Below, piece after piece: positions 17,577 through 41,391 of a stretch of 64,000 bases of DNA; position 1 is the stretch's first letter, and each line of letters begins with the position of its first letter. A program made the translations under genes and the position numbers. The notes beneath the pieces were generated by a model. It ran no database searches and was not told the origin of the DNA. It was given only the letters and a program-made list of their open reading frames with translations. This DNA is from Daejeonella sp. H1SJ63 (GTDB lineage Bacteria > Bacteroidota > Bacteroidia > Sphingobacteriales > Sphingobacteriaceae): NCBI RefSeq assembly GCF_029360775.1, contig NZ_JARKMZ010000018.1:21946-85945 (forward strand). Direction: 5' to 3'.

Positions 17577-18614
17577 TTATAGTTTATCAATAATCGTGAT
17601 CACAATACCGGTAATTACAATATTAGCAATTGCCAGAGGGATCAGTACTTTCCATCCAAGATTCATCAACTGATCATATCTGAAACGCGGAACAGTCCAC
17701 CTCACCCACATAAAGAAGAATATAAATGCAAATATTTTCAGAATCAGTACAGCCATTCCAACAAGCGGGCCGAACAATGGACCAGCCATACTGTTTACCC
17801 AATCCATTCCGGGATAATTATAACCGCCGAAATAAAGAGTAGACATTACCGCTGATGAAACAAACATATTGATGTATTCTGAAAACATGAATGCTCCCAT
17901 TTTGAATCCGGAATATTCGGTATGATACCCTCCAACCAGCTCAGTTTCACATTCCGGAAGGTCAAACGGAGTACGGTTAGTTTCTGCAAATGAACAAACC
18001 AGGAAAATCAGAAATCCAAGCGGCTGATAGAAAATATTCCAGTTGATGCCATGCTGCTGCTCAGCAATTTCCTTCATACTTAAGGTATTTGTGGTCATCA
18101 GCAATGCAATTATAGATAAGCCCATCGGAATCTCATAACTGATACTCTGAGATGCTGCACGTATTGCACCCATCAAAGAGAATTTATTATTAGATGCCCA
18201 TCCACCAATCATAATACCGTAAACACCAAGGGATACAACACCAAAAATATAAAGAATCCCCACATTGATATCCGTTACCTGCAAACTAACCAGAGTACCG
18301 GCAATCTGAACACTTTCTCCCCATGGAATAACCGCACTACCAATTAATGCCGTTAACAAAGCAAGAGAAGGTCCGAGAATAAACAGAGTAGTACTTGACT
18401 CTGCCGGAATAATTTCTTCCTTAAAAAACATCTTTAAACCATCGGCAAGCGGCTGAAACATCCCCCCCGGTCCAGCTCTGTTAGGTCCAACCCTGTCCTG
18501 AAGGAACCCTGCAATTTTCCTCTCAGCAAGTGTTGAATAGGCTGCAATAGTCAGGGTGATCAAAAATATGACCGTAATTAAAATAAATTTTTCTATTATA
18601 AATGCTAGTTCCAT
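17577..18614 (-). CDS. nuoH: NADH-quinone oxidoreductase subunit H
   Basis: This 345-residue membrane subunit helps form the quinone-binding cavity. Conserved segments are AERKIAGFLQDRVGPNRAGP (about 30-49), FAETNRTPFDLPECETELVGG (about 208-228) and the C-terminal WVRWTVPRFRYDQLMNLGWK (about 301-320). Its start overlaps the nuoG stop by one base, showing tight translational linkage. Confidence 0.97.
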   Translation of the reverse strand: MELAFIIEKFILITVIFLITLTIAAYSTLAERKIAGFLQDRVGPNRAGPGGMFQPLADGLKMFFKEEIIPAESSTTLFILGPSLALLTALIGSAVIPWGESVQIAGTLVSLQVTDINVGILYIFGVVSLGVYGIMIGGWASNNKFSLMGAIRAASQSISYEIPMGLSIIALLMTTNTLSMKEIAEQQHGINWNIFYQPLGFLIFLVCSFAETNRTPFDLPECETELVGGYHTEYSGFKMGAFMFSEYINMFVSSAVMSTLYFGGYNYPGMDWVNSMAGPLFGPLVGMAVLILKIFAFIFFFMWVRWTVPRFRYDQLMNLGWKVLIPLAIANIVITGIVITIIDKL

Positions 18615-19615
18615 CAGACCTTAGTTGCTCTGTCAAATTCTATTTTATTGGCTTCGATCAATACCTGATTCTTTTTGATCACAGGAGTCGGAGCTATTTC
18701 ATAATGATTAGCGGAAATTACAGAAGTATGCGCAATATGACGCGGCCCCTCAATTACCCAATCACTTGTATTTTTTGTTTCAAAACGGCAGGTATTGCAG
18801 ATAAAATCTTCAACCTCGCCAAACTGATCCTTACGGCCGGTAACACGCAAAACCTCTTCTCCTTTATACCATAAGGTTACTTTTCCTTTACATTTCGGAC
18901 AATCTCTGTGTGCATCTACCGGCTTTGTAAACCAAACACGGTTCTTAAAGCGGAAAGTTTTATCTGTTAAAGCTCCCACCGGACAAACATCAATTACGTT
19001 TCCGGAGAAGTCATTATCAATTGCCTTTTCGATATAGGTTGAAATTTCAGAAGCGTCACCACGGCCTAAAACTCCATGCACGCGTCCTTCCGTGATCTGA
19101 TCTGCAGTGTAAACACATCTGTAACATAAAATACAGCGGTTCATGTGAAGCTGGATCTTGTCGCCAATATCAATTCTTTCAAAAGTACGGCGTTCAAACT
19201 CATAACGGGTATCAGCAACACCATGTTCAAAGGAAAGATCCTGTAAATGACATTCACCGGCCTGATCGCAAACAGGGCAATCCAGGGGATGATTGATCAA
19301 AAGAATCTCGACAACACCCTTTCTTGCCTCAATCACTTCAGGCGAAGTAATATTTTGCACCTCCATGCCGTCCATTACACCTGTACGGCAGGATGCAACC
19401 AATTTTGGCATGGGACGCGGGTCTTTTTCAGACCCCTTACTCACTTTCACCAGACAGGTACGGCACTTACCACCGCTTCCTTCAAGTTTAGAATAATAGC
19501 ACATAGCTGGAGGAACAATATCTCCTCCAATCTGACGTGCAGCATTGAGAATACTTGTTCCCGGTTCTACTTCGACCGTTATTCCATCTATTGTAACTTT
19601 AACTTTTTCGCTCAT
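18614..19615 (-). CDS. nuoG: NADH-quinone oxidoreductase subunit G, short form
   Basis: At 333 residues this is far shorter than the 680-900 residues of canonical NuoG. Present are the N-terminal 2Fe-2S domain (CYYSKLEGSGGKCRTC, about 39-54), the His-Cys 4Fe-4S motif HPLDCPVCDQAGECHLQDL (about 108-126), the 4Fe-4S motif CILCYRC with CPVGALTDK, and a C-terminal zinc/Fe-S-like CPKC...CNTC segment (about 240-272). The large molybdopterin-oxidoreductase-like domain is missing. The end is a normal stop overlapping nuoH by one base, so this is an evolved short form and not a break. Confidence 0.92.
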   Translation of the reverse strand: MSEKVKVTIDGITVEVEPGTSILNAARQIGGDIVPPAMCYYSKLEGSGGKCRTCLVKVSKGSEKDPRPMPKLVASCRTGVMDGMEVQNITSPEVIEARKGVVEILLINHPLDCPVCDQAGECHLQDLSFEHGVADTRYEFERRTFERIDIGDKIQLHMNRCILCYRCVYTADQITEGRVHGVLGRGDASEISTYIEKAIDNDFSGNVIDVCPVGALTDKTFRFKNRVWFTKPVDAHRDCPKCKGKVTLWYKGEEVLRVTGRKDQFGEVEDFICNTCRFETKNTSDWVIEGPRHIAHTSVISANHYEIAPTPVIKKNQVLIEANKIEFDRATKV

Positions 19616-19620
19616 TGTTT

Positions 19621-19655
19621 AAAATTCAAAAGTCAAAATTCAAAAAGTCAAAACT
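19621..19655. repeat. Left inverted repeat of the S23-type element
   Basis: The plus strand carries AAGTCAAAATT (19630-19640) and AAAAAGTCAAAA (19642-19653). The same two words occur in inverted orientation on the far side of the four-helix-bundle ORF (20019-20050). The repeat lies between the ORF stop (19654) and the nuoG start codon (19615). Confidence 0.7.
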
Positions 19656-20018
19656 ACTTATTAAGATTAATAATAATTGCAGCTATAATTTTTGAAATCT
19701 CGTCAGCTTCTTTTAATAAACTATCTAATTCTTCTTTATCAACCTTTGATAATCCTATATCTCTAATAAGACAAATCCAATATTTTGTTTCATTTGCAGA
19801 TTTTAAGGCTATTGTATAAAAATTCTTAAAATCCTTTCTTGAACTACCGGACTTTCCTTCAACAACATCGGCTCCAATTGATGTAGCACTCCTCTCCTTA
19901 AAAGCTGGTCAAATATTGAAAAATGTATTTTTTCTATTTGTGCCTCAGATATAATTGAAATGATATCTTTTGAAAAATGATAACACCTGTGCTTAATATC
20001 AAAGGGCTTTCCGTCCAA
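19654..20018 (-). pseudogene. Frameshifted four-helix-bundle (S23/TIGR02436-type) protein inside the nuo operon
   Basis: From a TTG start at 20018 the frame reads GKPFDIKHRCYHFSKDIISI ... FDQLLR, the N-terminus of S23-type four-helix-bundle proteins encoded in 23S rRNA intervening sequences. At 19889-19898 a 5-bp tandem duplication (minus-strand AGGAG AGGAG) shifts the frame, so the continuous ORF ends at 19809 with nonsense sequence. Removing one copy restores RSATSIGADVVEGKSGSSRK and the rest of the family sequence through ANETKYWICLIRD to a stop at 19654-19656. The intact product would be about 120 residues. No ATG start is present, and the TTG may be the native start or itself decayed. 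Flanking inverted repeats bound the unit. Confidence 0.85.
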
Positions 20019-20050
20019 ATTTTTGACTTTTTAATTTTTAATTTTGACTT
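20019..20050. repeat. Right inverted repeat of the S23-type element (overlaps the nuoF stop)
   Basis: Read on the minus strand this is AAGTCAAAATT, a short spacer, then AAAAAGTCAAAA, the same words as the left repeat but in opposite orientation. The repeat includes the last codons and stop of nuoF (AGT CAA AAT TAA, 20038-20049), so the element boundary sits within the coding end of nuoF. Confidence 0.7.
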
Positions 20051-21408
20051 GCAACCTCTTCCAGTTTTGGCAATGGATCTGCATACTTTGCCAATCCATA
20101 ATTCCGCTCCATCGCTTCCTTTGGATTGTTTACATGCCATTCAAATTCATCCCTGAAATGACGGATTGCACTGGCAACAGGCCAGGCAGCTGCGTCACCC
20201 AAAGGGCAAATTGTATTTCCTTCAATCTTTTTCGATACATCAACCAGCAGGTCGATATCGCTCATTTTGCCATGACCATATTCCAGGCGGTGAAGCACTT
20301 TCTCCATCCATCCGGTACCCTCACGACATGGAGAACACTGACCACAGCTCTCATGGTGATAAAATCTTGAGAAGTTCCAGGTATTTCTTACAATACACTG
20401 ATCTTCATCAAAAGCAATAAAACCACCTGAACCAAGCATAGTTCCGGTTTGGAATCCGCCATCGGATAGTGATTCATACGTCATTAAACGCGGCTGGCCA
20501 TTAATGGTATTGAGGATCAGATTAGCCGGAAGAATTGGTACAGAAGATCCCCCCGCAACAACCGCCTTTAATCTTTTGCCATTTGCAATACCACCACAAT
20601 ATTCTTCTGAGTAAATAAATTCTTCAACAGGAAGTCCGAGTTCAATCTCATATACTCCGGGCTTCTTCAGATTACCTGAAGCAGAAATCAGTTTAGTACC
20701 TGTACTTCTTCCAACACCAAACTTGGCGTATTCTTCACCACCGTCATTAATGATCGGAACAACTGCTGCGATGGTTTCCACGTTATTTACTACTGTAGGA
20801 CATGCATATAAACCTGAAATAGCAGGAAATGGTGGTTTAATCCTTGGATTACCACGCTTACCTTCCAGAGATTCAATTAATGCAGTTTCCTCACCGCAGA
20901 TATAAGCTCCACCACCCGGCTGTACATATAACTCAAGGTCGTAACCCGATCCCAGTATATTTTTTCCTAATAATCCTGCATTCTTTGCTTCAGCAATTGC
21001 TCTTTCAAGAATACGGATCTGTGGCATCATCTCGCCCCGCACATAGATATAAGATGTTTTAGCCCCAAGTGCATAGCTGGCAACAATCATTCCCTCAATC
21101 AGTAAGTGAGGAATATGGGTCATCAGATAACGATCTTTAAACGTTCCCGGTTCAGACTCATCACCATTACATACCAGGTAACGCTCTTTCCCTTCAGGCT
21201 TTGCCAGAAAGCTCCACTTCATGCCGGTAGGAAAACCCGCACCTCCGCGACCGCGTAAGCCCGAGGTCTTAACCTCCTCAACCACAGCCTCGGGGGTCAT
21301 GGTCTTTAAAGCCTTCTCTACCGACCGGTATCCGCCATGCTGACGATAAACCTCCAGAGTATGGATACCCGGTACATTAATATTCTCAAATAATAACTTG
21401 CGCGCCAT
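20038..21408 (-). CDS. nuoF: NADH-quinone oxidoreductase subunit F (NADH/FMN site)
   Basis: This 456-residue subunit oxidises NADH with FMN and passes electrons to a 4Fe-4S cluster (N3). The NADH/FMN loop is GLRGRGGAGFPTGMKWSFL (about 51-69), the FMN region GGGAYICGEETALIESLEG (about 164-182), and the cluster ligands are CGQCSPC (about 349-355) plus the later Cys in NTICPLGD (about 391-398). The last four codons fall in an inverted repeat of the downstream S23-type element, so the natural C-terminus may have been altered by the insertion. Confidence 0.97.
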   Translation of the reverse strand: MARKLLFENINVPGIHTLEVYRQHGGYRSVEKALKTMTPEAVVEEVKTSGLRGRGGAGFPTGMKWSFLAKPEGKERYLVCNGDESEPGTFKDRYLMTHIPHLLIEGMIVASYALGAKTSYIYVRGEMMPQIRILERAIAEAKNAGLLGKNILGSGYDLELYVQPGGGAYICGEETALIESLEGKRGNPRIKPPFPAISGLYACPTVVNNVETIAAVVPIINDGGEEYAKFGVGRSTGTKLISASGNLKKPGVYEIELGLPVEEFIYSEEYCGGIANGKRLKAVVAGGSSVPILPANLILNTINGQPRLMTYESLSDGGFQTGTMLGSGGFIAFDEDQCIVRNTWNFSRFYHHESCGQCSPCREGTGWMEKVLHRLEYGHGKMSDIDLLVDVSKKIEGNTICPLGDAAAWPVASAIRHFRDEFEWHVNNPKEAMERNYGLAKYADPLPKLEEVASQN

Positions 21409-21416
21409 GCTTATTT

Positions 21417-21492
21417 AGATATGAAACTGAGATTTAAGATTGGGGAACAGATTTGATATAAAATCATTTCCCTCATCTGATATCTCATATCT
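21417..21492. repeat. Long imperfect hairpin filling the nuoE/nuoF spacer
   Basis: The outer arms AGATATGA (21417-21424) and TCATATCT (21485-21492) are perfectly complementary. Further inward GGGGAA can pair with TTTCCC, and GATTT with AAATC near the tip, so almost the whole spacer folds on itself. The inner arm runs into the stop codon of nuoE. It resembles a small palindromic repeat element rather than a terminator, because no T-run follows and nuoF must be transcribed through it. Confidence 0.55.
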
Positions 21493-22000
21493 TATTTTTT
21501 AAATTTTCTATCAGTTTATCAACGCTCTCTTCGGTAAGATTCTCATAAAAAGTGTATTCCGGACCGATTTGCAATACAGGAGCCATTCCACAGGCAGCAA
21601 GACATTCAACACCTCTCCAGCTAAATTTACCATCAGGAGTAACCTCTCCCTCTTTTACACCCAGAGTTTTTTCAATATGGTTCATGATCTTTTCTGCACC
21701 TACCAGACAACACGGGCCTGTACGGCAGACTTCGAGTACATATTTACCCTGCGGACGAAGAAAGAACATGGTATAAAAAGTAGCCACCTCATAAACTTCG
21801 ATCGGGTTGATCTGAAGGTAAGCAGCAACTTTATCCATGGCCTCGGGACTAACCCAGCCGTATTCAGCCTGCACCAAATGAAGTACCGGCAGTAATGCTG
21901 ATTTTTGTTTTCCCTGAGGATAACGACTTACAATCTCATCAAACTGTTTAATCAGGTCTGATGAAAATTCAATTTCCTTATGTTCAGTTACACTAAGCAT
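21485..22000 (-). CDS. nuoE: NADH-quinone oxidoreductase subunit E (2Fe-2S)
   Basis: The protein has 171 residues with a thioredoxin-like 2Fe-2S fold (cluster N1a). The four cysteine ligands fall in CRTGPCCLVGA (about 96-106) and ECLAACGMAP (about 133-142). It works with NuoF in the NADH-oxidising module. The start overlaps the end of nuoD by 8 bp. Confidence 0.96.
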   Translation of the reverse strand: MLSVTEHKEIEFSSDLIKQFDEIVSRYPQGKQKSALLPVLHLVQAEYGWVSPEAMDKVAAYLQINPIEVYEVATFYTMFFLRPQGKYVLEVCRTGPCCLVGAEKIMNHIEKTLGVKEGEVTPDGKFSWRGVECLAACGMAPVLQIGPEYTFYENLTEESVDKLIENLKNKI

Positions 22001-40520: not shown

Positions 40521-41285
40521 TTATTCTTCGTTCTTAATCAATGTTGCATTGAAATAATCGCGGTTCATTCTTGCAATATTGGTGATTGATATTTCTTTAG
40601 GACATTCAGCTTCGCAGGCTCCAGTATTTGTACAACTACCGAAACCTTCTGCGTCCATCTGCGCAACCATAGCCTGAACACGACGATAACGCTCAGGTTG
40701 TCCCTGAGGTAATAAAGCCATCTGTGATACTTTAGCCGAAACGAACAGCATTGCAGAAGCATTTTTACATGCTGCGACACAGGCTCCGCAACCAATACAG
40801 GTTGCTGAGTTAAATGCCTCATCGGCTACAACTTTCGGAATCGGAATCGAGTTGGCATCAGGAACACCACCAGTATTTACTGAAATGAATCCTCCTGCAG
40901 CCTGAATACGATCAAATGAAGTACGGTCAACGGCAAGATCCCTGATAACCGGGAAGGCAGAAGCACGCCAAGGCTCAATAACAACGATCTCATTGTCATT
41001 AAAGCTTCTCATATGTAACTGACAGGTTGTGATACCATGTTTCGGACCATGAGGCCGGCCATTAATGTGAAGCGAGCAGGCTCCGCAGATACCTTCACGG
41101 CAATCATGGTCAAAGTGAATAGGATCTTCTCCCTTTTTGATCAGGCCCTCGTTTACCACATCAAGCATCTCCAGAAATGACATATCCGGAGAAACCTGCT
41201 CAGCTTTATAAGTAACGAATTTACCTTGTGATTCAGCATTTTTCTGGCGCCAAACCTTTAATGTCAAATTCATATTTCCACTCAT
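40521..41285 (-). CDS. sdhB: Succinate dehydrogenase/fumarate reductase iron-sulfur subunit
   Basis: The protein has 254 residues. The N-terminal 2Fe-2S domain has [15 protein letters not shown] (about 62-76). The C-terminal dicluster ferredoxin part has [16 protein letters not shown] (about 157-172) and [15 protein letters not shown] (about 216-230). It carries electrons from the SdhA flavin to the membrane quinone site. An alternative start at MNLTLKV, four residues in, is possible. It is the last gene of the C-A-B operon, 106 bp after sdhA. Confidence 0.96.
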
Positions 41286-41391
41286 TATTATAAGTATTTA
41301 GTATTTAGCAATAAGTACTCAGTATTTAACTCTTTGGGCTTAGCAGATAATATTCATATTATTAAATATTATTTACTCCCATACTTCCGTA

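Follow-up and report, generated by a model that had tools for sequence, protein, structure and literature searches.

The S23 reading frame that lies between nuoF and nuoG in Daejeonella sp. H1SJ63 is a defunct copy of an element that occurs across bacteria and in which an S23 gene is enclosed by two inverted arrays of 7-nt repeats, a larger finding than the one first noted. We consider the chances even that this frame-broken copy belongs to a widespread S23 and inverted-heptad element whose arms, predicted to base-pair with one another in nuo mRNA, would then probably be cleaved by RNase III in the manner of the intervening sequences (IVSs) of 23S rRNA. With moderate confidence, we regard this mRNA intervening-sequence reading as the best single explanation of the data, with readings at the level of DNA or of host regulation as the alternatives.

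The window analysed here is the whole stretch of 64,000 nt (contig NZ_JARKMZ010000018.1, positions 21,946 to 85,945). The upstream host gene nuoF (20038..21408, minus strand) ends at 20038 and the downstream nuoG-like gene (18614..19615, minus strand) starts at 19615, both names being taken from the first-pass annotation and from reading of the sequence. The S23 frame between them (PF05635, TIGR02436-type; 19654..20018, minus strand) has a TTG start directly after the 5' arm and a TAG stop directly before the 3' arm; the element therefore consists of arm, gene and arm, about 430 nt in all. The 5' arm (20019..20050, minus strand) is an inverted heptad array, of AGTCAAA/ATTAAAA type in the sense direction, and contains the nuoF stop codon, in line with the initial observation that the right-hand repeat overlaps it. 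The 3' arm (19618..19653, minus strand), which separates the S23 stop codon from the start of nuoG, is an inverted array carrying the complement of AGTCAAA/ATTCAAA. The repeats, initially described as inverted copies of 11-12-nt words, are instead arrays of the heptads AGTCAAA, ATTCAAA and ATTAAAA, which can be aligned in several overlapping registers, with 80-94% complementarity over 16-26 nt. Their match score is 40, against a maximum of 28 for the flanking sequences of 57 other window genes, and two of the four 7-nt-periodic arrays in the window are the arms of this element.

The PF05635 profile matches part of the window protein (locus L008; 64.9 bits at 19681-19896), the N-terminal S23 part being in a different frame. 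The 5-bp AGGAG duplication proposed in the first-pass annotation was confirmed by aligning the locus with the unbroken S23 gene of a relative in the genus; it is a frame-breaking 5-nt insertion at 19889..19898 (minus strand). The profile match and the repeat comparison likewise uphold that annotation's placing of an S23-type frame within inverted repeats between nuoF and nuoG. The intact nuo copy (L044, genome G008) scores 94.9 bits with TIGR02436 and 82.3 bits with PF05635, above the curated cut-offs, and its structural model (pLDDT 92.6) gives matches to 2rld and 2gsc, with a weak one to Avd. A search of 19400-21700 found no Rfam RNA family at E 0.1.

The arms are a general property of S23 loci. 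A profile search found eight PF05635 copies in the genome of the window, each with flanking repeats of its own. These copies and the best-ranked 80 of a longer list from relatives gave 88 loci, two of which were dropped for short flanks; for the remaining 86, the left and right flanks of the same locus matched each other with a median score of 37, versus 19 for arms swapped between genomes, and in 65 of the 86 the locus's own arms exceeded the 95th percentile of 997 swaps. Identity at a lag of 7 nt is 0.374 and 0.364 in the two S23 flanks, compared with 0.266 in the reading frame and 0.252 and 0.255 in distant flanks, and flank identity peaks at lags of 7, 14 and 21. Within 350 nt of S23 genes there are 87 period-7 arrays versus 4 of the other periods from 4 to 12; farther away the corresponding numbers are 6 and 0 per 95.5 kb. 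In the 5' arm the common heptad core is AG and then a position that leans towards pyrimidines; the 3' arm has the complement. The 5' arm is G-rich and the 3' arm C-rich, and this A-G core is present in relatives and across phyla, with a G frequency of 0.86-0.93. Further copies flanked by inverted repeats at varied sites, as anticipated, do carry inverted arms, but what they have in common is the 7-nt architecture and the AG-type consensus, not the sequence; an arm sequence common to all copies was rejected, the arms being copy-specific and poorly matched by swaps. One of the eight copies (L004, 1501-1809) adjoins a GTTGACA array that is long and almost perfect, and more TTGACAATTGATA-like arrays follow downstream.

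S23 loci that share their host genes make up a site (argC-argD, fadB-fadA, metH and its neighbour, and fadA-fadE), and at four well-sampled host sites both arms switch heptad jointly between species. At fadB-fadA, for example, the 5' arm and inverted 3' arm heptads of different species are AGTATTG/AGTATTG, AGATATG/AGATTTG, AGTACTT/AGTACTT and AGACAAT/AGACATT. Permutation of arms among species within sites gave p = 1e-4, 5e-5, 5e-5, 5e-5 and 0.016, and 60 of the 62 loci had own arms that scored above the median of the swaps; L004 was assigned to the metH site probably through its repeats alone. Distances between heptads correlate with distances between the S23 proteins, and do so between different sites and across phyla as well (partial r 0.50, 0.25 and 0.34, each p 0.001). 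Co-inheritance as a unit, recognition by S23 or arm-to-arm copying could each produce this joint switching. No co-switching was seen among the four species compared at nuoF-nuoG, where own arms were no better than swapped ones; the four have identical heptads, and the site is therefore uninformative on this point. The S23-less hairpins at nuoE-nuoF also showed none (13 junctions, p 0.79), with low power because heptads hardly differ there; this hints that the arm match is maintained only in the presence of S23. In the S23 tree, which leaves out L008 (frameshifted) and L106 and L126 (internal stop), the fadA-fadE proteins of three genera (G022, G031 and G032) nest among those of the adjacent fadB-fadA junction; this grouping speaks for recent movement of the element less clearly than other junctions speak for breakage and loss. 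On contig 95 of genome G012, two S23 elements (L134 and L090) lie about 1.7 kb apart, and the S23 protein of L134 clusters with argC-argD proteins from other genera.

Breakage and loss are evident at nuoF-nuoG itself. Among 20 genomes of the genus, nuoF was found in 18: one (G008) has the intact element and one, the genome of the window, the broken one; five (G019, G006, G017, G007 and G011) retain a remnant of the gene start together with the 3' arm; nine have no S23 gene, with short heptad-like scraps in three of these (G010, G002 and G001); and in two nuoG does not follow nuoF. Insert-free junctions, which the first-pass annotation had proposed to look for, thus exist. It had also held that an ORF at this site in all relatives, with no empty sites and no such repeats elsewhere, would speak against a mobile or intervening-sequence origin, which is not the pattern found. 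Mobility at this particular site nevertheless finds little support: two genomes of other genera in the family (G091 and G030) have open S23 frames at nuoF-nuoG, so the element is no recent arrival at this junction but has long resided there and has been broken or lost repeatedly. Read by eye for target-site duplications, the empty and filled junctions proved to be diverged, and the arms extend into the end of the host gene. The scoA-scoB junctions include full, partly deleted, degenerate, ORF-less and clean versions, the clean gap being 1-2 nt in G004 and G013, and fadB-fadA in G015 is reduced to 43 nt. The coexistence of intact, broken, remnant and absent versions, with the same site occupied in other genera, indicates that the elements are old residents, often broken and lost.

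Arms without an S23 gene also occur. The nuoE-nuoF junction of the window (21409-21517) holds an AGATATG-type heptad array with no S23 gene, and S23-less arms were found at 13 of 16 such junctions in the genus, the best hairpins being those of G003 and G006; the same junction is occupied in L225 (G116) by a complete S23 element with different heptads, and in L220 (G091) it is a gap of 1 nt. The ORF-less hairpins at scoA-scoB in G019 and G007 (L269 and L272) carry TTTGTCT-type heptads unlike those of S23-bearing relatives at this junction. An AGTATTT-type 7-nt array at 41285-41335 of the window, just upstream of a gene that follows another (we take the downstream gene to be sdhB and the one before it sdhA), is probably an ORF-less remnant.

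The same layout extends across bacteria. A scan of named genomes yielded 80 S23 loci from about 15 phyla, which we assigned from the record titles; three (L141, L187 and L190) were dropped, and own arms passed the swap test in 57 of the 77 usable loci (29/42 in Bacteroidota, 28/35 in the others). This set overlaps slightly with that of the relatives, since L212 and L073 (G002) have the same arms and appear to be one locus or two nearly identical ones. In a gammaproteobacterial class sample, 57 of 274 genomes had an S23 match, and own arms passed in 27 of 30 loci, one of the 27 (L325) being GC-rich and without clear heptads. S23 matches were present on 42 plasmid records, mostly of Nostocales, and 7 of the 10 cyanobacterial plasmid loci examined passed; a phage collection searched with one S23 query gave no match. 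On two cyanobacterial plasmids (L287 and L288, about 1501-1869), a CRISPR operon carries a heptad-armed S23 gene between its cas6 and cas4 genes.

One locus of the gammaproteobacterial class links the operon elements to rRNA. In L331 (1439-1891) a sense S23 frame with two stops lies inside a full-length LSU rRNA match, between arms of 45 nt that are 82% complementary and have a 7-nt period. These arms were seen by direct comparison; the locus is not among the swap-test passes because its broken frame extends beyond the 3' arm. It was the only one of the 30 loci of this class to match the 23S gene of the Daejeonella genome, and none of 217 other S23 loci did so. In the IVS of Coxiella, RNase III sites are described in the stem, and GACAGAT heptamers are reported to be repeated in tandem directly ahead of the S23p ORF (PMC4990558); these heptamers, together with the arms of L331, indicate that the operon elements and the rRNA insert have a common anatomy. 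As in the Coxiella-type IVS so described (PMC4990558), the nuo element has a sense S23 gene, complementary ends able to form a stem, heptamers before the ORF and a length of about 430 nt, but it lies between protein genes of an operon rather than in an rRNA gene, and its cutting is a prediction; the 23S gene of its genome is elsewhere and of full length. The rRNA-gene inserts reported in CPR bacteria likewise include 23S_rRNA_IVP ORFs, with ORF-less inserts at the same sites; unlike the S23 operon elements, these inserts are in 16S and 23S genes and, as reported, mostly encode homing endonucleases (PMC11270868).

Heptamer arrays and mobile elements offer further comparisons. Heptanucleotide repeats of cyanobacteria are known as STRRs. 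Short elements moved by transposases, such as MITEs, have terminal inverted repeats and several copies per genome; the S23 elements share these features, but their termini consist of tandem heptads and vary from copy to copy. Terminal repeats common to the copies, as in a MITE or insertion sequence, are not present, the arms differing among the eight copies of the Daejeonella genome. The TAACTGA arrays of Beggiatoaceae, cyanobacteria and Bacteroidetes are also intergenic 7-nt repeats, often right upstream of start codons, and the (GATAACT)n 3' arms of several S23 elements contain the same word in a different phase; the TAACTGA arrays are described as direct repeats, whereas the S23 arms are inverted (PMC4679880). 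A text search of that paper returned no mention of S23, and MacGregor (2015) saw no evident mechanism for horizontal transmission of such arrays (PMC4679880). Among the papers listed in searches of open-licence PMC texts, we found none that connects S23 genes as a family with heptad arms or with junctions in operons.

The S23 gene mostly reads with its host operon: of 168 loci, 131 have it in the same direction as the two flanking genes and 10 have it antisense to the two. Counted by site, the numbers are 18 and 2 of 27; neighbour strands were taken from a crude ORF caller. S23 is under purifying selection: 201 same-site pairs were compared and 30 kept, most of the other 171 having no usable dS, and in these 30 dN/dS lies between 0.04 and 0.19, with a median of 0.12. 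Minimum free energy folds pair the nuo arms, in keeping with the pairing of the ends suggested for the nuo mRNA; whole-element folds, however, barely exceed those of shuffled sequences (z-scores of -1.58 and -0.48). Forced arm duplexes fell below the 5th percentile of swaps in 40 of 165 cases. Base-by-base tuning of the sense RNA would predict more G-U wobbles than A-C mismatches between the arms; the counts were 92 versus 133 (80 loci) and 75 versus 80 (56 loci), and selection of arm pairing base by base at the RNA level is therefore unsupported.

The proposal of an intervening-sequence-like element in mRNAs thus appears largely right: the inverted arms at varied junctions, the sense orientation and the 23S insert with the same arms all favor it, despite the lack of a G-U excess and the weak folds. 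With the S23 element in sense between nuoF and nuoG, the two arrays would pair in the nuo mRNA, the arms acting as RNA, and, by analogy with the 23S IVSs, RNase III would probably cleave the paired arms; mRNAs may in this way be processed like the rRNA insert. S23, with its ring-forming fold, may bind the AG-type heptads of its own element, and the element may persist because a cut between cistrons would cost the host little.

An alternative that we think unlikely, although it deserves real weight, is that the arms work as DNA, as inverted binding-site arrays or as templates for arm-to-arm copying, used by S23 or a host recombinase during movement or upkeep, with sense transcription merely supplying S23. 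In its favour, the arms match as a repeat type with no wobble bias; heptad type also tracks S23 lineage between sites (partial r 0.25, p 0.001), the fadA-fadE proteins nest among the neighbouring fadB-fadA ones, and plasmid copies exist. It fits poorly with the sense orientation and the fixed strand polarity of the heptads, with the copy inside a 23S rRNA gene and with the RNase III processing reported for such inserts (PMC4990558). A domain search, moreover, found no recombinase domain in S23. Somewhat less probable again is a host regulator that has been kept for its function, with S23 rings binding, in a TRAP-like manner, the AG heptad RNA of the 5' arm and tuning the translation of S23 itself as well as the balance between the two host genes. 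AG-type heptads directly before the S23 start, a dN/dS of 0.12 and retention of the same site across genera and families agree with this idea, but patchy loss within a single genus, clean junctions included, and neighbours with many unrelated functions do not.

The S23 four-helix-bundle fold is also that of Avd, the accessory protein of diversity-generating retroelements, and Avd chains are among the Foldseek matches (4dwl, TM 0.74 by query, E 0.099); one S23 copy also has a weak match to the bAvd profile, below its cut-off. An element moving through RNA with an Avd-like partner reverse transcriptase supplied in trans is nonetheless highly improbable, as RVT_1 is present in only 3 of the 20 genus genomes and absent from that of the window. 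No reverse transcriptase, template or variable repeat was seen at the S23 element, and an identity of S23 as the Avd of a retroelement was rejected for want of a partner RVT_1 in this genome. That the repeats arose by slippage in AT-rich DNA and match by chance near an ordinary gene is scarcely credible: the nuo arms are AT-rich and S23-less heptad arrays exist elsewhere, but the swap, window-gene and lag controls refute this origin for the element class, and GC-rich genomes have GC-rich heptads in the same layout.

Taken together, the same design in many phyla and in one rRNA insert, with arms predicted to pair, suggests that the S23 family probably belongs to one widespread kind of element. 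We put forward more tentatively, at somewhat short of an even chance, that S23 proteins are ring-shaped readers of AG heptads, that S23 and its arms form a single bacteria-wide class of transcript residents found mostly in operon mRNAs, with the 23S IVSs as its rRNA branch, and that many orphan heptamer arrays and operon hairpins are its ORF-less remains. Genes for S23, annotated as 'four helix bundle protein', are common and have no assigned role; the heptad arms, operon junctions and 23S insert give the family one anatomy, and S23 elements could also account for the origin of many 7-nt repeat arrays.
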